A stretch of 64,000 nt of DNA from Gracilariopsis chorda (Eukaryota; Rhodophyta; Florideophyceae; Gracilariales; Gracilariaceae). The position numbers and the translations under genes were made by a program. The stretch spans positions 82,432 through 146,431 of the forward strand of contig NBIV01000188.1 in assembly GCA_003194525.1 (NCBI GenBank), in the 5' to 3' direction. Under the pieces are notes generated by a model. The model had not been told where the DNA came from. It saw only the letters and a list, made by a program, of their open reading frames with translations, and searched no databases. Shown here one piece after another: positions 176-64,000 of the stretch. Every line of letters begins with the position of its first letter. Positions within the stretch are counted from its first letter, which is position 1.

Positions 176-343
176 AATCTGTTTAACACAACCGGTAGAG
201 AAGCCAGGTTCATGAATTTATTTTCAACCTCTACTTTCATAGAGTTTGTCACGTCATGGGCCTGTTAAGTACTCACAAAGTAAGCGAAAAAGACGTCGAC
301 ATTTATGAAACTTCACGCTTTTTTTGGAATTGAAGTAGCAACT

Positions 344-1928
344 TGTGGTGAGACCAATCGGGTTTCAAGTACCAGTGGGGTCGAGGGCTCGCTCTGAAGT
401 GGGGAATTTGAGTAACCGAAGAGGTATGGCAGCACGAAACCATTACGGCGCAAAATAAACAGACGGGCTTATCGTAACCAATTGGTAGTATTGATAGTAC
501 CGCGCAGACGGGTTATTAAAGCCTATATAGTCTTAGCTAAACCAAGAGGTTGACTGTAGAAACCAGTTGGTACCACACTTAGCCAAGAGGTGCTGGCTTA
601 CCTTAACCATCATTAGTGAGGGAGCACTATACCCATTGTGGGCGCCATCACGGGACGGTGACGCAAGGGGCCAAAAGGTTGTAATAATAAAAGCCAAAAG
701 GGTGCTCTTCGTAGCTAAAAGCCCCAAAACAAGTTGAAAACAGTGGGATCAAAAGAACTAAACCCACTCGATGAAATAAAACAACACTAGGGAGAGCAAG
801 AGGCTCAATCCCCAAATAAAACTTCTTAACTTCTTTGTTGAAACGGCGCGCAACCCAAGAATTATGTCAAGGATCACTAAGGGTCAGACCCTCGGCTTCC
901 GGTCAGACACTCCGGATGTGAAGTGGATTCTGCAGCCTACCTACCTCTGCACTAACCAGAAGCAGGCGCATACAATCCTTACAGGGCTTCCCGAGGAGAG
1001 CTACTAACAGCGGGATATGCTTTCACTCTATACCCAAGCTGGCCCTTTGCAGGAAAGGTTGCACGGCACGTCGCCTGCGGATAGCTTCCCGTCAAGTACT
1101 TCCGTCCGGAAATCACCAGGTCTTTCGACCGACACCGTTATCCGAGCAAAGCTCCGGTGGGGCTCACAGACGACAGAAACACCTTTGGTACACACTACCC
1201 GTCTCCCGTCCACGCCTAAGGCGCTTCAACCGGTCTTAGCGACGGTACTTCCCCACCCTATTGGACAACTAGCGGCATACGCCTCACTAGAAGCCCTTTA
1301 TCCAGTGGCGAACGCCTCACTGGTTGTTAATGATAGTTGAAGTGGCTGAAGGTTGATAGGGGGTGGGGCTTAGATGTTGGTCGATTGTTTTGGTGAGTTC
1401 AGACCGAAGTCCGAAGCTCAGAACCTCTTTTTATAGTGTTTAGAGGCACTACAAACGAGCTAAATACGCATTTCTGCTTGCTAGTTACTCATGTGTGCGT
1501 CTAGGTTACTCCATTGGCTTCTAGAGACCTCTGGAGCTGCACACTAACCAATAATAAAGCGACAATTTGCGCCAGCATCACTAAAATACTGTAGTCTTTG
1601 CTGGGCCAACAAAGCGTGCAATGTGCTAGACACTACTGGAACATTCTACACGTGTGTTCCAGCAATGTCTGGCACATTCCGCAACATTAGCGACCGACAC
1701 CCATCTTAAGGATGAGCGAGGCTCAACCTCAGGTACACTCGGCTACGTGGCATACGTTGGGCCTCGCCGTATTGGCATGGGCCCACACCACAGTAGTGGC
1801 ATGTAACTACCTATCTGAAAAGTAAATTAGTAAACTAATTAGTTAGGTACTCTAACCCAGGTGGCATACTCACCAATAGGTCCAGCGCGCGTTGCACTGC
1901 CCATGTGGTCAGATCCCACTGTATCACA
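344..1928 (-). repeat. 3' LTR of gypsy-1, interrupted by a solo LTR
   Basis: Two blocks, 344-636 and 1700-1928, align in order with the LTR at 10574-11127. On the minus strand the LTR starts TGTGATACAG and ends CCACA, the usual TG...CA form. Without the 1063-bp insertion and its 5-bp duplication the LTR is about 517 bp, against 554 bp for its partner. Many substitutions separate the copies, so the element is old. Confidence 0.85.
637..1699. mobile_element. Solo LTR nested in the gypsy-1 3' LTR
   Basis: Sequence between 637 and 1699 is absent from the partner LTR at 10574-11127. It starts TGTGGGCGCC and ends GACCGACA, so it has TG...CA termini. It is flanked by a 5-bp direct repeat CCCAT at 632-636 and 1700-1704. 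Removing the insert and one CCCAT copy restores collinearity with the other LTR. No coding sequence is recognisable in it. Its sequence resembles neither the gypsy-1 LTR nor the LTR family found at 45799, 47120 and 60597, so it marks a further family. Orientation is unknown. Confidence 0.65.
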
Positions 1929-2351: not shown

Positions 2352-4985
2352 TTGTGGGTGCGACGTAGGCGCGCTACGCGATTGCCCGTTGGTATTCCTC
2401 CCAATTGGTTAGTGCTGATCCAACACGTCATGCGTCCCCCACCCGAAGAAGTGGTAAACCTTTTGGACTTAGAAGAGCGAGAAGCCTCGCCAGCACACCC
2501 ACCGATTGGTTCTGGGGAGCCACCACCGCGGCGTCATGCTCCTCTCACGCCTACACAGGACATCGATACCAAGGGGGATGGGCCAGATATCCACTCAGGT
2601 CACTCTGAGCGGAGGGAACCACCTTCCACCCTTCGGCGTTTTCTCCGTGCCTCGAGGCCGTTCACCGATGGGTCACAGCCAACAGGCGAAGGGACGGGGA
2701 CTCCTCCAGCGTTCTGAGAACCAGGTGGCGATCCCTATTTAATCACTCCGAACGACTCCCCTCGTCGGTCTCCTTCCTCTTTTCCAACCGGATTTCACAC
2801 AGGCCCAATTGGTTTGTCGTCCGCAATGAACCATCACCCTCGGATGGGTTCTTAAGGGGGCATTTCCAAACGTTTTACTCGGTTCCAATCCCGGTGAGGT
2901 TCACAGACTCCCAGTAGTGGTCGAGGCCGTGGTCGCGGACACCCTTTCGGCTTCTCAGAGCAACTATCCAGACCTGGTTCCGAGTCCTGGGACTTCTCAC
3001 ACCGCTCCGGCAGCTGTTTTGCATATTGGTCAACCTAGTCCGCGTCCTCTTCCCGTTGTTGAAATGTTTCACCGCCAAGGTGGTTATAGAACTGCTCTGG
3101 AGGACATTGATCCCCGCATCTTCGATTCCAATTATTGGCCTATCAATGCCAACGTTCAGGCTCCAGACAAATACCGTTGACCCTCCGGTACCTATGTCAC
3201 TTACAGCCGATTAAATTGCGAGTGCCTAGCGCAGATTCCCACCTATAGGGCTCTTCCACTACCTGGTAGCCGAAACCGGTAGCTCAACCGATCAGCTTTG
3301 TTTGATGCCAAGTGGCTTCATACACTCTTCGTGTATGTTATACCTCCGATGGTTCCGTCTGACCTTCCCTTCGTCAACGGTGCCCAAGAGGTAAATTAAT
3401 TCCGCCGAGTGGTTTTATCCCTACACGATATGGATCCTCATCCTGCAGCCATGCGGTGTCACTTTGACTTGGGTTGCTTCGACAAACCGTTGCATACCAA
3501 CTGGTTTATGGACCGTGAACGGTGGGCTGGGGACTCACCTGACGAGTCCTGCCTTCGTCACCGCCGGACTAACGTGCGGACTATGCACACGTACAACCTA
3601 GTGGAATTCTTCTCGCAAGACAATGCGATGCGCCGTAAGATGCATGTGCCACGACGAAGTTGGTGGGAATACTACGAATTATGCCAGTCCTGGGACGTCC
3701 CAACCCCTCCAGTTTTAGCCTACTTTGGCAGTGCTATTATCGATAGCTCTCCTTTTGCAGGTACCGTTTGTACCATTGCCCTTGCGGAGTTTGCAACCAT
3801 GACGGCTCTTCTATCCTTCCAGTAGGCTCGAGAGGGCGTGACTTGGCTTACTCAGTCTAATGATCTACCTTTCTGGCCCACACTCTGTATCCTGTTGGTC
3901 GTATCTTTCGTATGTCGAAATACCAGTTGGGGATCGTACGCAACGAACTTGGAGCAGAAAAACAGGTAAGAGATACACCGTACTCGGTCTAGGAGCTCAC
4001 CGTCATTTTGAATGTAGCTGAAAACCACTTCTGGAGAGCAGGCCAGCCGTGGACGGTATGGAACCACAAGGAACTCCACGTAGCTACGACGGAGGAGCAG
4101 ATCCTCCTAGGTCGTCATGTCCATCAGGACAATGGGGACCACGAGGACGTTGCTATGCCCCAATCGGTTCTAGAGTCTTCAGCAGTGCCTGGAGCGTCCC
4201 TGTAGTGGCTACTTTACCTACTACGGTCGCGCCTCCTACTAGTCGCGGAACTCCTTCTACTCCAGCTTTTCAGGCTGTTTCCAGTCCATTCCGACCCGTT
4301 CCGGTAATTGGCCCTTTGGTTCCACGCGATTCCGGGCACCTCGACGGTATCGAAAGTGCTTTGCACCGAATCCATCATGGTTGTCTACGGTACTTTAACA
4401 GACCGGGCCCTCCGAATGCCATTGCTGTCGTTGATGCCCTGACCAGTTACCTTCTGGTACTGACACGGCGGGAGGCTCAAAACTATGGCCTCCACCGCTT
4501 CACGGACCAATTCCAGCACGCGCTGTACCAGGCGGTGCTACAATGTGGAAGCTCTTTCCTAGATAATTGACGATACGCCCTCGGCTGGTACTTCTTATAA
4601 CCAACAGGCTGCCTTGGGGCCGGCTAAACCATTCGGTGTTCCAGCTGCGACCACACCAACTGGCTTTCAATTACCAACTTCCACTGGCTTTAATTCCCAT
4701 CCAGGTGTTCCTTGCATGGCCCCAGTCGGTACTGCGCCCCCTTTGGCTCAACCGACGCAGACCCGTCCGTTCTATCTCAATTGTCTCCCACCAATTCCGG
4801 TTACACAGGTTTTACCAGCTGGTCAAGCCAGTCCCTCGACTGGTCCGTCTCCCATGGCAGGTACTCCTGGTGGTAGCTCCAGTGCCGGTGGGTCGGCCGG
4901 TGGCGTACGTGGCCAGGGATGGAATTCGCCAGGGCCTACGTTACTTCTGGGTCGGGGGAGTGGACAGGGCGGCTATGGTACTTGA
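2352..4985 (+). pseudogene. Decayed antisense reading frame of gypsy-1
   Basis: Between the chromodomain and the 3' LTR the minus strand has no recognisable gene, but the plus strand has a chain of open stretches (2352-2717, 2917-3180, 3409-3825, 4049-4570, 4614-4985). The 3409-3825 peptide resembles the intact plus-strand gene at 61560-63167. Both have AMR, then WW, then a PPxLxYxGS motif followed by I, then a hydrophobic helix-like segment. The 4614-4985 stretch is rich in Pro, Gly, Thr and Ser, as is the N-terminus of the intact gene. I infer that both chromoviruses carried an accessory gene antisense to gag-pol. Function unknown. Stops and frameshifts make this copy non-functional. Joining of the pieces is uncertain. 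Confidence 0.55.
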
Positions 4986-5153: not shown

Positions 5154-6811
5154 TTATCGTCCATGCATGGCATAGGCGTTGAGGGATCCAGTTGGTGAGG
5201 TTTCATTTCGTTTGCGCCAATAACTTATGAGGAAGTTATTGGGTATGTGTTGGGGCGCTTCCATGGTGTCATGGAACGCCATCCACCCATACCACCTTAA
5301 ACGGTAACAAATTCCCGATATGGTGACCTCGTGACCAACGATGGAGTCAATGACCACTTCGGTTTCTGTTGGTGCATTTCCAAGAGGTTGTGTTGCCTTC
5401 CATTGTGGTGGTGTTCCATTTCCAATCGGTGAAGCAGCGGGAGCGACCGTAGGGTCGGCGTTTATCGTCCTTGTTCCAATTGGTTTAGTGCTCCCATCGG
5501 GTGAAGGACTAGAGGCCGAGTCCTTGGGAGCTTGTTGTTCTAATTGGGTTGATGGAGCCGGAGCAAGGGTGTTCCATCTAGAATCTCGGTTGGTACGTTG
5601 GTTTTCCGGGCTTTTGTAACCCTACCAAGCGACACGGTGTTCTCTAAACTGCCTTCCAGGATAGTTACTCTGTGGTAGTTTGCTCGTATAACCTCGTAAG
5701 GACCAGTTGACTTTGGCAGTAGCCTGGAATTTATCTCCTCCGCTACGATCCGGTCATCTTTCTCGTCCATCCGGACTGGTGAAGCACCATTTGGTGGGAC
5801 ATCCACGAAACCGTAGTCCCCGACTTCCACTTTGGGAACCCTTTGCACCCTCTGGTCGAAGTACTTCTTGTACCGCTCCTGTGCTGCGGTCATCTTTGAT
5901 GATGCTACTGCAAGGGTTTCCCTCAACCTTCGTAGGTCATTCCTATTCACCTGAGTGGCAGATTGTGTCCCGGAGGCGCGGCGGTTTGCCGAACCAGCTT
6001 GGACAATAATACCGGTAGGGTGACTTGACAAAAACAAATCAAAGGGATTGGTTCCCGTTGAGCGATGTACCTGTAGGTTGTAAGCGTACATCAAGGGCTG
6101 TTCGAACTCAGCCCAATCCGATTGATGTTCAGGTACGTAATGACGCAATCGTTCCACAAATGTTTGGTTAAACCTTTCCACTTTCCCATTGGTCTGGGGG
6201 TGGTACGCCGTCGTAGAATAGTGCTTCAAACCTAACATGGTACAGACTGATTCGAAGAACCTCGAAGCCAGGTTAAGATAATTATCGGTGAGTAGTTAGA
6301 GTGGAGGACCGTACGGATATACCCATTGCTTTAGAAATGCTTCCGCTAGAGCAAGTGAGGTTGTGCTCTTGAGAGGGACTGCCCTTGTGAGCTTCTTAAA
6401 CCGATCAATGACTACCATCACGTACTTATACCCCTTTGTGGTTTCTAAAAATGGTCCCAATTGGTCAATAGCAATGAAATCCAAGGGGCTGGCCGCGAGG
6501 AATAGCTTCATGAATTTACCATGTTTTCGAATACCACCAAGGGTCTTAAAGCATGAGAGGCATGTAGCCACATAGGTATAGACTTACTGAGCTAGCAGGG
6601 GCCAGTAGAAGTCTCTCCTTATGGTGTACTACATTCTTGTACCTCCCGGGTGACCTGCAAACCGGGGCCGGTGAGACAGGTGTAGAACCCTTTGGCGAAG
6701 CGACTTCGGAACGACCTTTTGGAGCAGGCCATCTAAGGTGGATCGCCTGACTAAATAGCCCTCATGGTCCACATCGAACTTTGTATTCTTCCGCTCAACA
6801 AGGTGTAGCAA
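5154..6811 (-). pseudogene. Integrase with C-terminal chromodomain, gypsy-1
   Basis: Reading leftwards, 6811-6629 encodes the HxxxH part of the integrase zinc finger (HLSHRPRFAGHPGG). 6571-6296 encodes the first part of the catalytic core, with the first Asp in FIAIDQLGPF and DRFKK after it. 6238-5540 has HPQTNGKVERFNQT, with the catalytic Glu, followed by the C-terminal domain (VSLGRVTKARK). 5357-5154 encodes a chromodomain (VIDSIVGHEV...YRLRWYGW...APQHIPN). Integrase inserts the cDNA and the chromodomain steers it to marked chromatin. The segments lie in different frames with stops between them, and the second Asp region around 6240-6300 is damaged, so this is a pseudogene. Confidence 0.85.
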
Positions 6812-10550: not shown

Positions 10551-10570
10551 ACTTCTACGTCGGGAGACCA
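10551..10570 (-). promoter_or_regulatory. Primer-binding-site candidate of gypsy-1
   Basis: Three bases inside the 5' LTR, the plus strand reads CTACGTCGGGAGACCA and ends in CCA at 10568-10570. This looks like the 3' end of a tRNA: an acceptor strand, a discriminator base, then CCA. The complement on the minus strand begins TGG, as primer-binding sites do. I could not identify the tRNA species. Confidence 0.5.
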
Positions 10571-10573
10571 AAA

Positions 10574-11127
10574 TGTGGTATGACCAATCGGGTGCCCAGT
10601 ACCAGCGGGGTAGTCCGTTTGGAAAACCTTTGGCTGGAGTGCGACGAAGGCTCGACCTGAAGGGTGGGCGTTGGATAACCGAATTGGTGTGGCAACACGA
10701 AACCACTACGGCGCAAGATAAACAGGCGGGCTTACCGTAACCAATTGGTAGTGTTGATACTACTGCGCAGATGGTTAGTAAAGCCTGAATATTCTTAGCT
10801 AAACCAAGAGGTTGACTGTAGAAACCAGTTGGTACCACACTTAGCCAAGAGGGGCTGGCTTACCTTTACCATCCCTGGTGAGGGAGCACTGCACCCACCT
10901 TAAGAGTGAGCGATGCTGAACCTCAGGTGCACTCAGCTACGTGGCATATGTTGAGGCCGGCCCTAGTGGCATGGGCCCACATCACAGTAGCGGGGTGTCA
11001 CTACCTATCTAAAATAATTAAGAAATTACTAAACTAATTAGTTAGGCACTCTAACCCACGTGGCGCACTCACCAATTGGTCCAGCTCGCGTTGCACTGCC
11101 CATGTGGTCAGATCTCACTGTATCACA
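10574..11127 (-). repeat. 5' LTR of gypsy-1
   Basis: This 554-bp copy is uninterrupted. On the minus strand it starts TGTGATACAGTGAGATC and ends CATACCACA. It aligns along its length with 344-636 plus 1700-1928. It contains an AT-rich stretch near 11010-11045 that could hold promoter elements, but no clear TATA box position can be chosen. Confidence 0.85.
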
Positions 11128-13599: not shown

Positions 13600-14740
13600 T
13601 CGTATTCGCGCAGTAGAAAGACGGCACTCTATTCCTCTGCGTACTACCGCCGCCTCAACGCTATGACCGTACGCGATACGTACCCCATACCGAGAATGGG
13701 TGAGTGATCCACTTCGTAGGAGTTTTAATGGTATTCACCACTTTGAATGCCAATAGCGGTTATTGGCACTGCGAAGGTGGTGAGTCCGACCTGGATAAAA
13801 CAACATTCACTTCCCGCATGGGACAGTTTCGTTATGTTAGAATACCGTTCGGTCTCAAGAACGCACCTGCTACCTTTCAGAGGGCGCTCGATATCATCCT
13901 TTCACGGGTTAAACGGCAGTTCGCTCTAGACTATCTAGACGACGTCATTAGCTCCGTTTGGCCAGCATTACGCTGCGATTGGCCAAGTGCTCTTCTTCCA
14001 CCAGGTGGTCAGCTACCTTGGCCACATTATCCGTCTGGGCAAATTACAAGTATCCAGTAAGGCGTGCGACGCTTTGAGACAGGCGAACCCCCTTACTAAC
14101 CAGACGGAGCTACTGTCATTCCTTGGGTTTTGCAACGTTTTCCACCGGTTTGTTTGTGGGTTTTGCTCGCATTGCTAGGTCGCTTAATCAGAAAATTGAG
14201 AAGGACCAGCCATTCGAGATCAAAACTCTGGCTAATACGGAATATGAGGCTCTCGACGAGCTGCGTCAACGCCTCATACGCACACCAATACTGGCACCTC
14301 CCCGAAACGGTCATGAGTACGTCCTAGATAAGGATGCTTGTAAAACCCAAGTTGGATGCTGTCTTCTCCAGGAGGAGCCTGAGGGCGACCGTCGTCTTAT
14401 AGGCTACTGGAGCCACTCACTTACAAAACCGGAGCCGGCCTACTCTACCACTAAACAGGACTGTTTGGATATCTTTTGGGCCATTAATCACCTCTGACCG
14501 TACTTGGATGGCCCACGGTTCACACTCCGTACGGAACATCATGTATTACGATGAATTCTGAACTTGTGAGATGCGTCTGCATCCGGACGGTTAGCGAGAT
14601 TAAGACCCCGTCTCATGGCATCTCAGGGAGTACGAATTCGACGTAGTCAACCGACTGGGAACAAAGCACCAAGTGGCTGATGCGCTTTCCAGATTTCGTA
14701 CGGATGGGGAAGATACAGATCCACTGGAGGATGAAGTACC
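13600..14740 (+). pseudogene. Reverse transcriptase and RNase H of gypsy-2
   Basis: Fragments in successive frames give the Ty3/gypsy order. About 13620 has a DGTL...RLNAMTVRDTYPIPR region. 13704-14060 has FTTLNANSGYWH, MGQFRYVRIPFGLKNAPATF and the active site LDYLDD. 13987-14178 has the thumb (YLGHIIRLGKLQV...FLGFCNVFHRF). 14123-14497 has RNase H with YVLDKDACKTQVGCCL and the YSTTKQDCLDIFWAI motif. About 14500-14540 reads YLDGPRFTLRTEHH. The normal DANSGYWQ is changed to NANSGYWH, and several frameshifts and stops break the gene. It makes no functional enzyme. Confidence 0.85.
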
Positions 14741-14828
14741 ATGCATGATGACGGACACTATGCCCGAGACGGACAAAGAATATACCGTGGCTATGATATG
14801 TTGGGATGGTAAAGAGTAGACCGTAATA

Positions 14829-15490
14829 GTGCACTGGCCACAAGACAAACCGAACGGGATAGGACTTCCAGCAGTACTCGAGGTCAATGGAGAGATGCAG
14901 GAAGTCGCCCCTATTACGGTAGAAGCATTCCTCCTGGAACAGGAGGATGATCCTCTTTGCAAGTTCGCATGGGAAAAAGTCGGATACGGCAGATGTTTAT
15001 TCGAATTAATCCGTAAGGGGATATTAATACAGAAAGCTCCGCTAGACGGAGCTCTCCAATGGTTAGTATCGGAACCTCTGCAGTCCAGATTATTGTCACT
15101 GTCCCACTACCCACGGTTCCTGGACACTCTGCCGCAACGAAGATGTATTCCACGCTACCGCGGGATTACGACTGGACAGGAATGGCAAATGACGTGTTTC
15201 AGACCGTACGCAATTGTCGAACTTCTTTCTTCACAAGAGGGAGTCGCGAGCGCCATCATAAGCTACTGAAACTCTTTCCCGCAGCGGGCTCGCTGTAATT
15301 CGTCGCAATGGACTTCCTCGGTCCATTTAAAAAATCTGCACAAGCTCGCCAGTATATTCTGGTCGTTACCGATCGGTTTATAAAGTTCTGCCGAGCGGTC
15401 TCATGAATTCAAGTACGGCGGGAGCCGTATTCCAGGCTTTCCTGGAAAACTGGGTCTACTGTGGATCAATGCGTGCGCCCATACCCTCTA
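14829..15490 (+). pseudogene. Integrase N-terminal part of gypsy-2, truncated
   Basis: After the RNase H spacer the frame gives LLSLSHYPRF. A neighbouring frame gives PGHSAATKMYSTLPRDYDW and MANDVFQTVRNCRTS, the HHCC zinc-binding part. From 15303 comes VAMDFLGPFKKS with VVTDRF, the first catalytic Asp of the integrase core. The similarity ends near WVY at 15455, where LTR-like sequence begins. The second Asp, the catalytic Glu and any chromodomain are missing. Confidence 0.75.
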
Positions 15491-56260: not shown

Positions 56261-57209
56261 GTGCCAATCGAAGATTCTGTGCGAGGTTGCGATGTGTTTC
56301 TGATGCAAGAGACGTGATACCCCAAGAATGAAAAGCTGGTACAGCTCCCATTAACGACCGAGGTATGCAGACGCACTTCTGCTCACCAAACCACTGGCCA
56401 TGATTCCATGCGATTATTATGCTCCCGAAGATGGTCGAATGGATCCCTTCGCCGACGACAGACGGGCTCACAATTAAGCCCGTTCCACATATGTTTTCAT
56501 CGGTTGGTGTGGACAGAATTGCTTATGGGTTCTCTGATATCCTTACTGATCATGTTTATGCGTTGAGTGTTCTGTGGCATCGGATGTTTGCGGTGTGGCA
56601 TGGGCTGTAGTAATTGCGAAAGGAATCAGTGACGCGCCAATGGCAATCATCGATAAGAGAAGGAATCAAGTAGTCGATTCCCTTGAACTCGAGACAGTTT
56701 CAAGTTGTGTAGGTTCTGCTTCTCCTTGAATTCCGTACAAGAACAAATCTTTCCGCTCAGACGGAGTATGCCAGCATCACTCACACAAGGGGAAAGGGCT
56801 AAACTACACGACGTAGATAGTGTAGACGAGTCAGCGCGCATTTGCACCAATAAAAAGAGAGAGTCAGCGGGCACGTGCCACGGCGAGCTGCGCAAGTGCC
56901 CGTGCCACTTGAGATCTTACTGTAGCCAATAATACGCCCCTATTTTGGATTTCAACCAGTAGATCCGCAGAGTCAGAGCATTCCCTCTATCCCTGCTCTC
57001 TCCGGCCGCCAAGTCAGCACAACGAAAATCAGATGTAGATGCAGTCGAGGTTACCGCGCGGCGTCGTCAAAATGTGTGGTAATGACAGATACGTCAGGTA
57101 CTACGTCCTCCTTCACATCTTCGACGACCCTTTCAAAGACTGCTGACTCTCTCTACGTCCCAATCTCCTTCCCTAACCGCTCTAGTGTATTGTTCTATTG
57201 CGTAGAGCA
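56261..57209. other. Intergenic interval
   Basis: No gene is supported. The 56419-56610 and 56647-56895 frames are short and without features. It separates the membrane-protein cluster from the Ulp1/FAR1 remnant and may contain the left end of that element. Confidence 0.4.
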
Positions 57210-60200
57210 ATGGAGCAAAAAAAAGCGTCTCATTACGTAAAAATTCTCCCACAACATGAACTATATGAAACGTTTACGTCGTTCTGGGAGAATCTTGAAA
57301 ATCGTACGCAAATGCGCATGAGAGATGGCGGTGCCAGTTCCGAAGTCGTTTTTGCGGTTGTGAAGGACCATGTAGCCAGAATCTTGATCGCAGAAGGCAA
57401 AGAAACATCACCGGCTTCTTTGGTACACAGTTCAAAACTTTATTCAGAAATGTTTAGCGATTTGATCGCAACAGCTGTGTTGAACATGGTACCTTCTGTT
57501 GGTGTGGCTTTTGCCTCATGTTCTATTGGAGTGATGCTGACAAGACTATGGAATTCATTCAAGGGAAAGAAGGCAAACAAACCGGAAGAGGATTTGGAAG
57601 TGTTCAAGAAGTGGTTTACCTTTAAAGGTAATGGTGATACAGAGATAAACACCGTTGTAGTCCCGTTGAACATGTCTAACAGCCACTGGGGTGTTTTGGT
57701 AGGGTAGAAAATTGTCAATGCGGCGCGAGGAACGCAACGATGGACGGTTTGGTTTGGAGAGAGTCTTGGAATGTCTGTTGATCGAAGGATTCTGAAACTG
57801 TTCTCTTTCTTGTTTCCCTTTTGCCTCACAGGAGACAAAGCGCTACGTGCGGTGATATCGGAGCGAAACTACATGCTACAGTTAAAAGGTTTTAAGCGAC
57901 AAAAGGACTCGCACAGTTGTGGTTGCTATGTTGTTTCCCTTTTCACCATGTTCAGTGCGGACCACGGCTGTATCCCGAAGCGAACCTACGCCTCTCGGTA
58001 CAGCCGAGCGTAGACTGAGAGGATTCGATGGATGTCCATTAGAATCCGGATTCTACACATACTCATCGCGAAGGAGTTCTTTCAAACCGACATTGTTACT
58101 GAAACAATGGTCGTACGGCTCCGGTCGGAGCATCGTTTAGAACTCCTTCGCATGAGAAAGGAAGGTAAACAACGGCAGCGTAGGACACGAAGCGTGGAGC
58201 GGAGCATTGGGAAGCAGACTGGAAAGGAAGAAGCTGGAAAGGAAGAGGGAACGGATGTGAATACAGTTCTGGGAGAACGGGATGCAGGAGAAGGAAAGGT
58301 CGTGGATGTTTTCAACGACCCCTGTAGAGAGACGAATCTTCAGCCAATGCCCTTGGGTACGCGTGACTCTGAGGCGCGTGCTATACGGAAAAACCAGCGA
58401 ACAAAGGGTGTTCATGAGCTGAACCAAAGTTCTGTTCAGAGCAGTAGGATGTGTCTACCCCTGAAGGTTCGCATGAAGCGACGAGTGCAGTATTTCTGAT
58501 TCTGCTCCGGTTGTAGCGGACATTGTGAACACATTGATTGAGATATGTGTATCACAGCGCTCCGAGGTGGTGCACAAAGCGCTAGATGAGAAAACTGGAA
58601 GAAGTTCTGAAGTAGGTGGAGTATCAGGTGTAGAAGAAGAGGAGAAAAAAGGATTCTGAATGGAGAAGGTAGTGAAGTAGACACGGCAATTGACGGACAT
58701 TCACCAGCAAAGACGATCAGTCGGACACAGTCACACGTAGAAGTTGAAGCTGAAGAAGGAGCGAAGGATACCGTGGCGTCTTCCGAGCTGAAGGCACAAA
58801 CTGAAAAACAGATTGAAGAGAAGAAGCAGGCTTCTGAGAATGGTGGTCAAGCTCAAGAGCTGAATGAAGAGCTGGCAGCCTGTTCTGATGCTCAGATACA
58901 GGAGAAGCCGCACATGGAGCTACCATCAATGAATATGTGTGAAGGACGAACTACGAAGACGGGTTCATGCACTGAGGTTCAGGCAGACTTCCAAGAGAGG
59001 TTTGAAAACAATGGAAGGCCTTCAGAGGTTGATGTGAAACTTCAGGACGGTCGTGAATGTAAGACAGAACTTGCGATGTCAAACGAGAGGCTTGTCTCAG
59101 CTCTGAAAGGTTTAAAGGAGGTCTTTGACCTCCCTGCACTGGTTGCCTACATCGCTAAGAACTTTGGCTACCTCTATGGTGTACAATACTTCTCAGTGTT
59201 TCAGACGAGGAAGTCGAGGTCATCTGCGCTGCTCACCGGAAAATTGCGGTGTCTGCGGAACAAGTCGCAGTGCCGCTCCAACATTCGGGCAAAGTTCTAT
59301 CCCATGGCAAGATGTTGGGTAGTTGAACAGGACCTGATACACACGCACACCCCCCACCAATTTCCATGCCCCGATGATGTTGTGAGAAGGAGGTTTGAGG
59401 GCATTGGCTCCTCTTTAGCCTCACGTCTACAAGAATGGGAAGAGCACATACGGAAAAATGGAGAATATGTACGTCTGTCATGCATATTTCGAGCCATACC
59501 CCCCTTCCAGGGAGCCGATTTCTACAACAGCTCATCATGCTACCTCATAGAGCATTCACATGGGCCTTTATCTCAAATCGATGCAGAGACAGGTAGCGAA
59601 GACGATATGGCGTATGGTGACTCCAGTGGCGTTGAGGACTTTTATCCCTTCTATTGCGTGTTGCATAGCACGAAATGCCCTGAGAGAGGAGGTGTTTTTG
59701 ATGGCCGTGCTTCGCAAAGAGGAGTGCACGAACCCAAACCCGAGCTTTGGAAGCAACACTCCTCGGTTTCACAGGAAGGAGGTAGGCCGTTTTCCACTCT
59801 ACCGAAGAGGCCGCAGCAAGGACCTATCTCAGGGGAAGGCATCGGGAAAGGTGGCGTAAACGATTTGAAATGCTCAGATGGACTTCTGGATAACGCGTTT
59901 AACGTCGACAGTGGCGTAAGAGGCGATTTTGGCATTAGCTGTTTTGAAGCTGACCCCCCTGCTGCTTCTCCAAACTCCTCAACACAAACAGTGGATGCGA
60001 AATGCGAGCGTGCACCCCGCAGCGCTGTGGGCGCCGAGTTACCCTCAAAAATGAGTGAGGAGAGTGAAACTCTCAACGCAAACGTTGCATATGCGCAGCA
60101 GGTTTCAGATGAGCAATCCGTTGAAGAAGAGGAGGCGCTGCTCATTGATCGATTCCTAGATGACGAAGAGGAGGTTCCTTCATGCTTCTTCGAAGACTCT

Positions 60201-60596
60201 GATGGTGGCATCCTGGATGAAGAAGAATCAGAATCAAAGGAGAAGGATGGCCTTGGAGAGAAGGACGAAAATTACTGGACAGAAGATGGTGATGAAGAAC
60301 TGGGCACGGAATCCGTACAGAACACGATACCGAATGAGAGAATTGAGGAGTGTTTTAAAGCAGCTGTCTTAGCCTATCTGGAAACCCTTCCTCTCAATGC
60401 TCCTGGTGTCACGGTTCTGAAGGAAGTTCAATTTATCGCGGACTGCTTCGGGTACAGCTTATTCGTAAGGAATTCTATATACTTTGGAGAACGAAAGCGA
60501 TATCCGGATAAGGCAAAGTCTCCGAAGAGTCGTGGTGCTGAACGTGGGAATAGAAGGGTGCTGAAGAAGGGAATCTTGAAGTGCGATCGATACAAT
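57210..60596 (+). pseudogene. Ulp1 protease plus twin FAR1-like zinc fingers (Mutator-type remnant)
   Basis: 57210-57707 begins MEQKKASHYVKILPQHELYE and ends with VVPLNMSNSHWGVLVG, the His region of a C48 (Ulp1/SENP-like) peptidase. After a shift the Asp position reads FGESLG, with Glu in place of the usual Asp. 57840-57960 has KRQKDSHSCGCYVVSLFTMF with the Gln and the catalytic Cys. Acidic, repetitive linkers follow (58032-58690). 58773 onwards has a FAR1/WRKY-GCM1-like finger (YFSVFQTRKSR...LRCLRNKSQC...LIHTHTPHQF, about 59170-59370). After an Asp/Glu-rich linker a second copy begins near 60420 (SLFVRNSIYFGERKR...ILKCDRYN) and is cut by the LTR at 60597. Ulp1 together with FAR1-type fingers is known from Mutator-like elements of plants. 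No DDE transposase is visible, so the class is inferred. Confidence 0.7.
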
Positions 60597-61509
60597 TGTG
60601 GTGCAATCCCGGTGTGGGAAAGGCACCCAAGGCAGCTCGAAGCCTTGCTCTCTTGGAGAGGTAGGCCCAGCTGGGTAGAGCCCTCCGTGTCCCGTATGAC
60701 GGGTGTAACTCCGTCGGGAGCCTGGATGTACCTCGGAGGTTTAGGGGTTAGAACGGGTCGGAACCACGGCTGGTCCGGAAGTAGCCTGCGAACAGGGGAA
60801 CAAAAGAGGGAAAGGGACCACCCGACGGGGGCGTGCGGAAAGCGGGAACAGACCCCGGAGGGGGGTGCCGATACACACACACGAACACGCACCGCGCGGC
60901 GGTTAGGGGATATGAGGGGAAGGGATGGTCTCACGGTCTCACGACACACGTCGGTAATATCAATACCCAAAACTGGGGCGGAGATAGGGCCTGTACGGGC
61001 GGTCATACGACAACAATGAATACCACGAGTGGTCACAACCCACTGGGTACGACGAGCACGGTCTCCTCGGTGGTGCGAGTCGGGTGAAACTATCGGGCAA
61101 GCGGTGTACCTCCGCGAGGATTTAGACACTTCGCATGGGGAATAGAGTCAGAGCCGAACTCTTGTTACTTTTCTTGGTGAGCTCGCCGTCGTGCGGCCGA
61201 CGCTCAAGTACTAGCTCAGTGCAGTACAGTAGGTAGTGCACTAGCCTAAGTAAAATTAACCCCTAAACTACACTAAAATAAGTAGCCGTTTTGGGCCTCC
61301 TGGCCGGGGCTGTAGCCACGTGTCCACCACCCTTGCCAGGCAAGTACCACAAAATATGAATGTTCCCATAACCACCCTGGGTAACCCGACCGCTAATTAG
61401 CCCGGTAAACGGGGGCTAAAATTCATGCATCCCGCTTCATCGCTCGCCCCGAGTACACCTCAGATATGAGTTTCACCATCGCCCGTACGCGGGAATGTAT
61501 TGCACTACA
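60597..61509 (-). repeat. 3' LTR of a second chromovirus (LTR-D)
   Basis: On the minus strand it starts TGTAGTGCAATACATTCCCG and ends with the inverse of TGTGGTGCAATCCCGG. It is the reverse-oriented relative of solo LTRs A and B: the CAGCTGGGTAGAGCCCTCC block and the CAAGTACTAGCT block match. At 913 bp it is the longest copy. A polypurine tract and coding sequence follow on its right, so it is the 3' LTR of a minus-strand element extending past 64000. It sits inside the second zinc finger of the Ulp1/FAR1 gene. The left flank is ACAAT. The other flank is outside the window. Confidence 0.8.
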
Positions 61510-61511
61510 CA

Positions 61512-61522
61512 TCCCCCTCCTT
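61512..61522 (-). promoter_or_regulatory. Polypurine tract of the second chromovirus
   Basis: The minus strand reads AAGGAGGGGGA, two bases from the LTR start, as for gypsy-1 at 1931-1940. It supports LTR-D as a 3' LTR and the minus orientation of the element. Confidence 0.7.
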
Positions 61523-61559
61523 AAGGGCCGAAAACGAACGTGAGTATAGGCGTGAGGAG

Positions 61560-63167
61560 ATGAGGCGCGATGGTATAAATAGTCCCGACAAGGGAATCGC
61601 CGAGATACCGGTCCCCCGTACCAACACGGTTACAACTGATCAACCCTCAGTACCTTCTTCAACAGACTCTGCGCCCCTCTCTGCTATGACCAACACTCCG
61701 TTTTCGAACAACCCGCCTGCGGGCGCCCCGCAGGGGACTTCCGCGAGCGGACAACCTTCCTTCGCGACGCCGGGGTCGCGGGTTCGTCACCCAACCTCTG
61801 GGTTCCTCTCCTTGCCTCTGCCTGGAGGATCGTCTCATGTTCCAACCTTGGATGCCTCGGATGCCGCGAGTATCGCCGCCTGGAATTCCGCTCAAGCGAT
61901 ACCGATCACTGCGACCGCCGCCGGCTGGGTGTCACCATCGACACTTTGGGCCCGCAATCCCCGGGAAGACGCTCTCCTCTTTTCGCGTGCGCCCTGGTTC
62001 CACCCCACATGGGTTTCCGACTCGGACCTCATCGACTCCTATGTGGAGGAGGGCGAGCTCCCAGGGGTACTAGGCCGGGATTTGGTCGACTCCTTCGACT
62101 GGAGGACGCGTATCGCGGTAGAGCCACAGTTCCTCGCACGGAAGCGCACCAGATATGGTTTCGAGACGCTGAATGAAGCCCGTGCCGGGATGGCCAAGGT
62201 CGCCTACGACCGTCTCGCCCGCGCGAGTTATCCGGATGAGCTGATACCAACGGAATACAGCTTTGACCTCTCGCGGTACCGTACCTACGGTGAAGTCTCA
62301 TACTGCGAGAACCTTGCTGCCTACCAGCCATCTACACCGTTCCGGTCCACTCCAATAGAAGCCGGGATGCTCCTCTGGAGGCGCCCAATTCTGCGTGCAG
62401 AGTTCCGATATCTTCGTCGTCCGAATCATCGCGGATCCTTCTTCGACCGACTCCGGTTTGAGCGAAAGGCGCGCTCCCGCTTCGGGTTCCTGGTACCATA
62501 CCAAAATCTCGAGGTCGAGAGGCTCCGTCCATCCGCGATGCGCGGCCGGTATGCACCTCTTCCCCATTGGTGGAGCAGGTTCGAAGTCCCGAGGGGATGC
62601 TTTGCGGAGATGCCTCCGTGCCTCAGCTACATCGGTTCACGATTAATCAACAATCCGGATTCCGGTTACTGGACTCTCTTTCTCACCGAATGGGCTGCTC
62701 GCGTTGCCGCATTTCTCCTCTGGGAGGTATACGACAAGAACCGTCTGTGGTACATTCCTCCTCACCTACGCCAGGTTATCCGCCGATTGGATCTCTATAT
62801 CCCTCTGGGATCCGAAGCCAATGTGGATGAGCTTCAGTGCCTTCTGAACACCATCGGTATGGTTAACTGGGATACAGTCCCAGTCTCCAACGTCCCTGAC
62901 GGTGAGCCTTCCAGGCATGATCGCTCTCCAGGCCGGAGAAATCCAAACGCTGGCAACTTCGTCTTCTATGACCCTTGGGAGGTATATGTGACTTCACGGG
63001 CTCACGCGCTAGCGTTACGCGATGTACCACGCTCCGTTCCGCGAGGCCACCCGGTTGGGTTCATGTTTTCCGATGACTGGCACGGTTCCTACGAGGATGA
63101 TCCAACCGCCAACGAGCGGCTCATCTTAAGTCAGGATCCTGGACCGTGGCACACACACCTGATATAG
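61560..63167 (+). CDS. Intact antisense accessory gene of a chromovirus, unknown family
   Basis: The frame is open from 61500, but the first ATG is at 61560 (MRRDGINSPDKG), giving about 535 residues. Residues 1-110 are rich in Ser, Pro and Thr and probably disordered. The rest is a globular, Arg-, Trp- and Tyr-rich domain (LWARNPREDALLFSRAPWF, RAEFRYLRRPNHRGSFFDRL, LPHWWSRFEVPRGC, MPPCLSYIGSRLI) with one hydrophobic helix (LFLTEWAARVAAFLLWEV). It reads opposite to gag-pol, between chromodomain and 3' LTR. The decayed plus-strand frame of gypsy-1 (3409-3825) has matching AMR, WW, PP-L-Y-GS and I positions. No stop or frameshift interrupts it, which suggests selection. Antisense frames between pol and 3' LTR are known in some plant elements such as Grande, without clear function. 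I recognise no domain. Confidence 0.75.
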   Translation: MRRDGINSPDKGIAEIPVPRTNTVTTDQPSVPSSTDSAPLSAMTNTPFSNNPPAGAPQGTSASGQPSFATPGSRVRHPTSGFLSLPLPGGSSHVPTLDASDAASIAAWNSAQAIPITATAAGWVSPSTLWARNPREDALLFSRAPWFHPTWVSDSDLIDSYVEEGELPGVLGRDLVDSFDWRTRIAVEPQFLARKRTRYGFETLNEARAGMAKVAYDRLARASYPDELIPTEYSFDLSRYRTYGEVSYCENLAAYQPSTPFRSTPIEAGMLLWRRPILRAEFRYLRRPNHRGSFFDRLRFERKARSRFGFLVPYQNLEVERLRPSAMRGRYAPLPHWWSRFEVPRGCFAEMPPCLSYIGSRLINNPDSGYWTLFLTEWAARVAAFLLWEVYDKNRLWYIPPHLRQVIRRLDLYIPLGSEANVDELQCLLNTIGMVNWDTVPVSNVPDGEPSRHDRSPGRRNPNAGNFVFYDPWEVYVTSRAHALALRDVPRSVPRGHPVGFMFSDDWHGSYEDDPTANERLILSQDPGPWHTHLI

Positions 63168-63507
63168 GTTAGCGCTTAACGCTCCATAGCTTGTGGTAAA
63201 CGACTTCCTTCTTCTATATCCGTATGTCCGGACTCTTCTTTTTCTTCTTCATAGCATCTTCATGCTGGACCGCTAGGCGGTATTCTTCATTAAACCGTTA
63301 CTTCAGTCGGACCGCTATGCGGTGTGACGTCCAATGACCATTGGCTTCCCTATCCAGTCCATTACTTCGTGTAACCTTCTGTAGCCAGATCTCTTCCTGT
63401 GTCCTCTTCTCTTCGGAGACTTCTCTTCCGTCTTCGGAATCTTCTGCATAGTGCAGCGTATCGTCCTACCCAACCTGGGCCATGTCCAAAGTGGATGGGA
63501 GTGGGAA

Positions 63508-64000
63508 CCGCGTCCGGCGGTGGTAGGTTATCACCTTGGAACGAGGGAGGTGCTGAATGGGCTCCCATGTGTCCTCTTCCGGGGGGTATCCGTACCATCG
63601 GATTTGGTAAAACCACACTCCTCTGGAGTCCAGAACATGATCCACGATGTGGTCAACGACAAACTCCTGGTCGTACGTAACCGGCTCCTGACCGTCATGG
63701 CAGGGCTTAAGGGGAGAACCCTGTGAGGGGACTTGCCTGAAATTGGCGCGACCCTGCGGGCAAACTCAGTTTTCCTCGACGCTGCGAGTGCTGGGATTTG
63801 ATACCGCATTGCGGTCTTTCCGCTTCCTAATCCTCTCCTTGTGGGGGGGCGTTTCCGTTCTAACCGGATTCCCCTATTGACTCGCAGCTCGCGAGCTCTT
63901 CTCCCACGCGACCCGTGCAACTCTGGTGAGTTTGACCGTTCACGGTGAGGGAGGCGGTTCACTACGGTTCCGACGCCAGGATGCGGATTGCCATGCATCA
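63508..64000 (-). pseudogene. Integrase C-terminal end and chromodomain of the second chromovirus (partial)
   Basis: On the minus strand 63693-63508 encodes a clear chromodomain: TYDQEFVVDHIVDHVLDS, WFYQIRWYGYPPEEDTWEP and IQHLPRSKVITYH. Upstream, 63790-63740 reads RKTEFARRVAPISGK, like the integrase tail motif VSxxRVxxA, in a different frame, so a frameshift separates them or the reading is imperfect. The gene continues beyond the right window edge. The chromodomain resembles that of gypsy-1 at 5154-5357, with RWYG in both. 63168-63507 holds no further gene that I can support. Confidence 0.8.

Follow-up and report, generated by a model that had tools for sequence, protein, structure and literature searches.

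A chromovirus in a 64,000-nucleotide stretch of the genome of the red alga Gracilariopsis chorda (C188:82432-146431, the whole of which is called the window here) carries, between its chromodomain and its 3′ long terminal repeat (LTR), a long open frame on the strand opposite to gag-pol, and this frame encodes a protein that purifying selection has long maintained. In the genome that was searched (91.3 Mb, 1081 contigs), the gene occurs in six chromovirus families, in each of which integrase, chromodomain or both follow past its stop on the other strand. An earlier reading of the window from its letters alone (the sequence-only reading) had placed a plus-strand frame of 535 codons between chromodomain and 3′ LTR, and the open run, the Pfam Chromo domain and the LTR edge were all confirmed. 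Pfam Chromo (PF00385) matches the minus-strand frame 63469-63765 with an E value of 8.7e-11, and the order of parts in this family is chromodomain, antisense gene, polypurine tract, LTR. From base composition alone, the chance that a run of 565 codons, the frame's stop-to-stop length, is open at a given start is about 1.5e-8, and no minus-strand frame of more than 112 codons lies inside 61560-63167.

Families were labelled F1 (window), F2 (C41), F3 (C1038), F4 (C144), F5 (mostly 54-66% identical to F4), F6 (C460; 45-47%), F7 (37-42%) and F8 (gypsy-1, also in the window). F1-F3 form group I and F4, F6 and F8 form group II, in which the C-ends of the protein are RG-rich.

Selection between families

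The case for antisense open reading frames (ORFs) in LTR elements has often relied on a single family or a few. Here several families with saturated synonymous distances occur in one genome, which permits a codon-level test of coding and constraint. Pairwise codon models of the GY94 type (F3x4) were fitted with a purpose-written script to protein-guided alignments (Table 1). A ratio of nonsynonymous to synonymous change (ω) of 1 was rejected in all five family pairs compared (2ΔlnL 100-284); because the synonymous distance between families is saturated, ω can only be bounded as small. Protein-guided alignment is biased towards amino-acid identity, yet too little to yield 54% over 559 codons. 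The selection proposed in the sequence-only reading is thus borne out as strong amino-acid constraint between families.

Table 1 Pairwise codon tests of the antisense gene between families
Pair	Codons	Identity at positions 1/2/3 (%)	2ΔlnL vs ω = 1
F2-F3	559	64/70/36	284
F1-F2	553	54/60/34	166
F1-F3	567	54/59/35	154
F4-F6	715	49/57/34	181
F4-F8	527	45/50/26	101

Families that share the gene

Past the antisense stop, the sense strand was examined in a single copy per family, F5 and F7 aside; LTRs were mapped for F1 and gypsy-1, while F2, F4 and F6 were read on the chromodomain side only. On the strand opposite the gene, Pfam Chromo was found in F1 (L012), F2 (L069), F4 (L071) and F6 (L070). F1 (L073) and F4 (L071) also gave matches to rve and Integrase_H2C2, and F1 gave one to RNase H. 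The C-terminal part of integrase was recognised by eye in F2 (L072) and F6 (L070), the SH3_Tf2-1 match of F2 being sub-threshold (E 0.0034). By Pfam, the F1, F2, F4 and F6 hosts have the chromodomain on the C-terminal side of a Ty3/gypsy-type pol, the arrangement by which chromoviruses are recognised.

Among the 150 integrase matches listed, an F2-type integrase lies on the opposite strand within 6 kb past the stop at 55 of 76 F2/F3 places, 42 of these 55 at 1,870-1,891 nt past the antisense stop, and at none of the 76 does one lie past the stop on the same strand. The remaining 21 places, 10 of them F3, are without an integrase among those matches; for one F3 place an opposite-strand integrase was confirmed. 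Counted from the other side, the gene adjoins at least 54 of the 82 F2-type integrases listed. At C705, two same-strand integrase rows were noted about 5.95 kb away on the gene's other side, where two elements lie close together.

A 141-residue piece of the gypsy-1 frame matches at least 150 places, first itself and then others from 77% down to 23% identity, and many of the distant matches sit in frames that run for 600-850 codons from stop to stop. Long frames are retained in distinct families whose identity is 23-54%; in F3, all 11 rows are stop-free at 52-54% identity to F2. The slot said earlier to be shared by two families is therefore real, but its commonness had been understated, since six families have it. 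Scores of 47.5, 39.1 and 27.0 bits were obtained when the three group II proteins were searched with a profile of group I (E 2e-16, 7e-14 and 3e-10, computed in a three-sequence set), for which reason both groups were treated as one protein family, and the group II profile recovers the window frame 61470-63164 (E 3.3e-7). With slot and orientation common to six families and each group's profile finding the other, the proposal of common descent stands.

The motif-based match between the F1 gene and positions 3409-3825 of gypsy-1 proved significant. When a 613-residue relative was compared with the window by tblastn (low-complexity filter and composition correction off), a match at 3484-3807 was obtained with 28% identity and an E value of 3.7e-5. 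A hidden Markov model (HMM) of 11 group I proteins, none of them from gypsy-1, placed the frame 3400-3822 second out of the 937 frames with 40 or more residues in the window (E 1.9e-8, 29.5 bits), against a best score of 8.9 bits in 20 shuffles of all 937 frames. The group II profile, made from four proteins of which one is a gypsy-1 relative, marked further gypsy-1 pieces up to 4982. On the sense strand of gypsy-1, 5540-6295 (-) matches Pfam rve_3 at an E value of 8.5e-5, weaker than Pfam's cut-off.

Copies of the gene and drift within families

A tblastn search of the genome, in which 81 of 1755 candidates were scored, returned at least 85 matching stretches, at least 70 of them stop-free. 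Homologues in other copies of the element, which the sequence-only reading had proposed to look for, are thus present, together with the further families. Of 53 F1 copies fetched, six that were gapped or truncated, including that of the window, were set aside; as the copies had been ranked by protein match, the sample leans to intact ones. The full frame of 613 codons (ATG, no inner stop, final stop) is present in 40 of the 47 in-register copies. The statement that the gene was intact in one element, the F1 element of the window, is thereby reversed: 268 nt present in copy L012 (positions 1547-1814 of its ORF) are missing from the window copy, the loss lying at about 63105. Past about codon 518 it is out of frame, with about 95 codons lost and an unrelated end of 17 residues gained.

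In the 47 F1 copies, the observed/expected ratio of nonsynonymous to synonymous changes was 0.84 for singletons (146 nonsynonymous, 74 synonymous and 8 stop changes) and 0.87 for shared changes (31, 16 and 0), and three F2 copies gave ω of 0.83, 0.95 and 1.00. Divergence from L012, calculated after leaving out copies of unequal length or more than 5% apart, was 0.67% in the ORF (46 copies), 0.66% in the inner LTR (37 copies) and 0.51% beyond the stop (46 copies). Ratios near 1, together with the alike divergence of ORF and LTR, point to drift after insertion, so that the within-family test mostly measures this drift and leaves the case for selection on the transposing lineage intact. A dN/dS near 1 across copies had been named beforehand as telling against a real gene; it is found within families, whereas the test between families rejects it. 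Constraint acts in the transposing lineage and none is seen in resident copies.

Table 2 Features of the window discussed in the text (positions counted from its first nucleotide)
Feature	Position	Strand	Remark
Antisense accessory gene, F1 window copy	61560..63167	+	535 codons counted from first ATG
Second in-frame ATG (codon 43), possible real start	61686..61688	+	suggested by TATA-like stretch and starts of relatives
Candidate antisense core promoter (weak), TATAAATA	61574..61581	+	14 nt after first ATG
3′ LTR of F1 chromovirus (TG..CA)	60597..61511	-	inner edge 48 nt from antisense ATG
Chromovirus polypurine tract, adjoining 3′ LTR	61512..61522	-	motif at 61508, recognised by eye
Chromodomain frame, sense strand of F1 chromovirus	63466..63765	-	Pfam Chromo
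Decayed gypsy-1 (F8) antisense gene	3400..4985	+	pieces 3400-3825, 3864-3989, 3993-4202, 4022-4567, 4563-4982
N-terminal remains of gypsy-1 antisense gene	from about 2274	+	by eye
gypsy-1 integrase frames, sense strand	5540..6583	-	by eye
gypsy-1 chromodomain-like frame, sense strand	5154..5621	-	by eye only; no Pfam match
gypsy-1 3′ LTR pieces, split by about 1.06 kb	339..1928	-	
gypsy-1 5′ LTR pieces	10569..11127	-	81-92% identical to pieces at 339-1928

The right end of the window is also the end of the contig, so that most of pol of the window F1 element falls outside the window. In other copies the F1 LTR pairs are 10.45-10.58 kb apart (for example C4:675982/686519), which with an LTR of 0.92 kb gives an element of about 11.45 kb.

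The antisense protein and its relatives

The protein has a variable, Ser/Pro/Thr-rich N-terminus, a conserved Arg/Trp/Tyr-rich core with 39 invariant columns rich in Arg, Glu, Gly, Pro and Tyr, and an acidic or RG-rich C-terminus. The two terminal parts diverge fast and are family-specific; the core is conserved over deep splits. No Pfam match was obtained for the window protein. A profile search of the PDB gave one chain at an E value of 1.1 and, with the group II profile, none at E up to 1; no relative was found in PHROGs for the two proteins tested, nor among phage records and viral contigs. In Pfam searches of 15 members at E up to 5, neither PF04195 (TRP28) nor any basic leucine zipper family appeared. 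The earlier remark that the protein belongs to no recognised family therefore held for Pfam, PDB and PHROGs, and on these comparisons the family appears to be new.

Outside the searched contigs, there are nine homologues with 30-56% identity and one more distant match; two come from named red algae, Gracilariopsis chorda and Agarophyton chilense. A group II query of 774 residues had as its sole match one near-identical protein (98%). A distant homologue of 442 residues, P0011 (E 1e-13), shares 24% identity with the F1 protein when all are aligned jointly, and may represent a third branch.

For five families, trees were built from the antisense protein and from the C-part of integrase; both separate F1+F2 from F4+F6+F8, with a support of 100 in each; the F2 and F6 pieces in the integrase tree have 88 and 147 residues. 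The antisense gene was thus probably present before group I and group II split, the congruence holding for this deep split alone.

Relation to known systems

Antisense ORFs between pol and the 3′ LTR, termed aORF-3R, are described for the plant elements Grande, RIRE2, Retand and PvRetro13 and for fungal Boty, in many copies and several related families and with no function assigned (PMC7264820). The same text states that gene23 of Grande is transcribed from its own upstream promoter and that its product is nuclear. In Retand, which belongs to a non-chromovirus lineage, TRP28 proteins occur in 97% of clusters, and these antisense proteins (PF04195) have been proposed to bind DNA (PMC11963269); PMC6338049 deals with other accessory domains. 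In our literature search, which covered listings and the openings of abstracts and for which subscription journals were mostly outside reach, antisense genes were not seen described for LTR elements of red algae.

The gene described here resembles the aORF-3R, as portrayed there, in its slot, its orientation antisense to gag-pol, its many copies and its several families, and differs in that its hosts are red algal chromoviruses. Slot and orientation are of a known kind, seen in plants and fungi, whereas the protein family appears different as far as Pfam tells. A relation to the proteins of Grande, RIRE2 and Boty was judged by Pfam only, which gave no significant match; from TRP28 it differs in that PF04195 matches 0 of 15 members and in that Retand is not a chromovirus. 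An antisense promoter inside the 3′ LTR has been reported for human T-cell leukaemia virus (HTLV; PMC7264820 and PMC11963269). The antisense protein gene at the 3′ LTR can in outline be likened to HBZ of HTLV-1, as a comparison of how things work and with no sequence relation claimed. HBZ is a basic leucine zipper protein; the protein here is longer and has no significant Pfam domain, and so no sign of such a zipper.

Proposed function and alternatives

As the first F1 ATG is 48 nt from the edge of the 3′ LTR, transcription most likely starts in the LTR or just inside it. The stretch TATAAATA lies 14 nt past this ATG in 47 of 49 F1 copies scanned, and its position after the first ATG would favour the second ATG as the F1 start. 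In F6 a TATA-like stretch lies 30 nt upstream of the first ATG; none was seen in F4, nor in the fetched F2 and F3 stretches, which hold little or no upstream DNA.

We consider it probable that this is a genuine antisense accessory gene of chromoviruses, with a promoter in the LTR region and a product that regulates its own element in trans. The gene would be driven by an antisense promoter that lies within the 3′ LTR or directly internal to it. Acting in trans, the protein would influence how its element is expressed or replicated, most likely as a regulator that associates with nucleic acid and is perhaps nuclear, by analogy with what has been suggested for antisense proteins of plant LTR elements. 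RG-rich tails, here those of group II, suggest contact with nucleic acid. Among possible functions, we rank regulation through nucleic acid above a role in integration, and the latter above anti-silencing. More tentatively, and with doubt still prevailing, the gene may represent an ancient antisense regulator of red algal chromoviruses that pre-dates the split into two groups and shares no sequence ancestry with its counterparts in plants, fungi and retroviruses. If so, genes by which LTR elements are controlled in trans would have evolved repeatedly in the 3′ LTR slot, with a logic like that of HBZ. With this gene, an apparently new protein family in red algal chromoviruses joins a class of accessory genes that is poorly understood, and function becomes testable in one gene family with many copies.

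Several results weigh against the regulator that we favour. TATA-like stretches were found in two of the three families in which upstream DNA was examined, and they are weak. Strings resembling nuclear localisation signals (NLS) are scattered and occur in 4 of 21 sequences scanned. Pfam searches of 15 members returned single-member matches only, at E 0.11 or worse, and no known domain. Within families ω is 0.8-1.0, and constraint is not significant in the 47 F1 copies or in the three F2 copies. The antisense and integrase trees conflict inside F4/F6/F8, the former joining F4 with F6 (support 92) and the latter F4 with F8 (65). Lastly, for 28 of 82 F2-type integrases the listed matches include no antisense gene alongside; either the gene was lost in these copies or the listed matches are incomplete.

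A real antisense product could instead work in integration, through nuclear import of the pre-integration complex or as a partner of integrase or chromodomain. The gene adjoins the chromodomain in each family read and tracks the integrase groups at the deep split, but an antisense promoter would separate its timing from that of gag-pol and the NLS-like strings are few; we regard this role as unlikely. Less likely still is a suppressor of host silencing that shields its own family, comparable in role to VANC, which suppresses host silencing for the Arabidopsis transposon VANDAL21. Family-specific, fast-diverging terminal parts and the many young copies would suit such a suppressor; the lack of a domain and a core conserved across deep splits would not.

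The remaining explanations dispense with a regulator or integration partner altogether. One is that the antisense transcript is what counts, perhaps by giving rise to double-stranded RNA, with the protein incidental. This has a parallel in other LTR elements, whose antisense transcripts may act so (PMC7264820); conservation at codon positions 1 and 2 but not 3 over 527-715 codons is not what an RNA function predicts, and makes this very improbable. We give even less credence to an envelope-like protein: the slot between pol and 3′ LTR is that of env-like genes, but the orientation is opposite to gag-pol, and Kyte-Doolittle means over 19 residues, used here with no dedicated membrane predictor, peak at 1.14 in the window protein, 1.29 in full-length F1 and 0.88-1.90 over 21 sequences. 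An accidental frame in a young copy of a high-GC stretch could stay open, and ω near 1 within families would agree with it. The same frame is kept across families with random-looking third positions, however, and a chance frame or the mirror of a sense-strand gene, to which we attach next to no weight, was ruled out by the codon test between families, together with the finding that no long frame runs along the minus strand.

Other observations

In F1 and F2 the chromodomain lies outside the frame of the integrase C-part, in a short separate downstream frame that ends in AQVG and a stop (63466-63998 in the window; also read in L012 3682-4074 (-), L073, L072 and L069 3-251 (+)), unlike F4 and F6, in which chromodomain and integrase share one frame. 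Splicing or a separate ORF are possible explanations. On C74 a chain of F1 LTRs at 101821, 112360, 118542, 124724 and 135262, with spacings of 10.54, 6.18, 6.18 and 10.54 kb, looks like elements that share LTRs or a shorter form.

Elsewhere in the window, 57186-58013 and 58611-61019 (+) hold an 802-codon stop-to-stop frame that resembles a Mutator-like element (MULE) transposase by eye and whose 3′ end enters the chromovirus LTR; its ATG/GTG part, 58773-61019, has no Pfam match, and the frames beside it are what we take to be Ulp1-protease-like. A second gypsy-like element, with reverse transcriptase and integrase pieces recognised by eye, lies at 13704-15298 (+).
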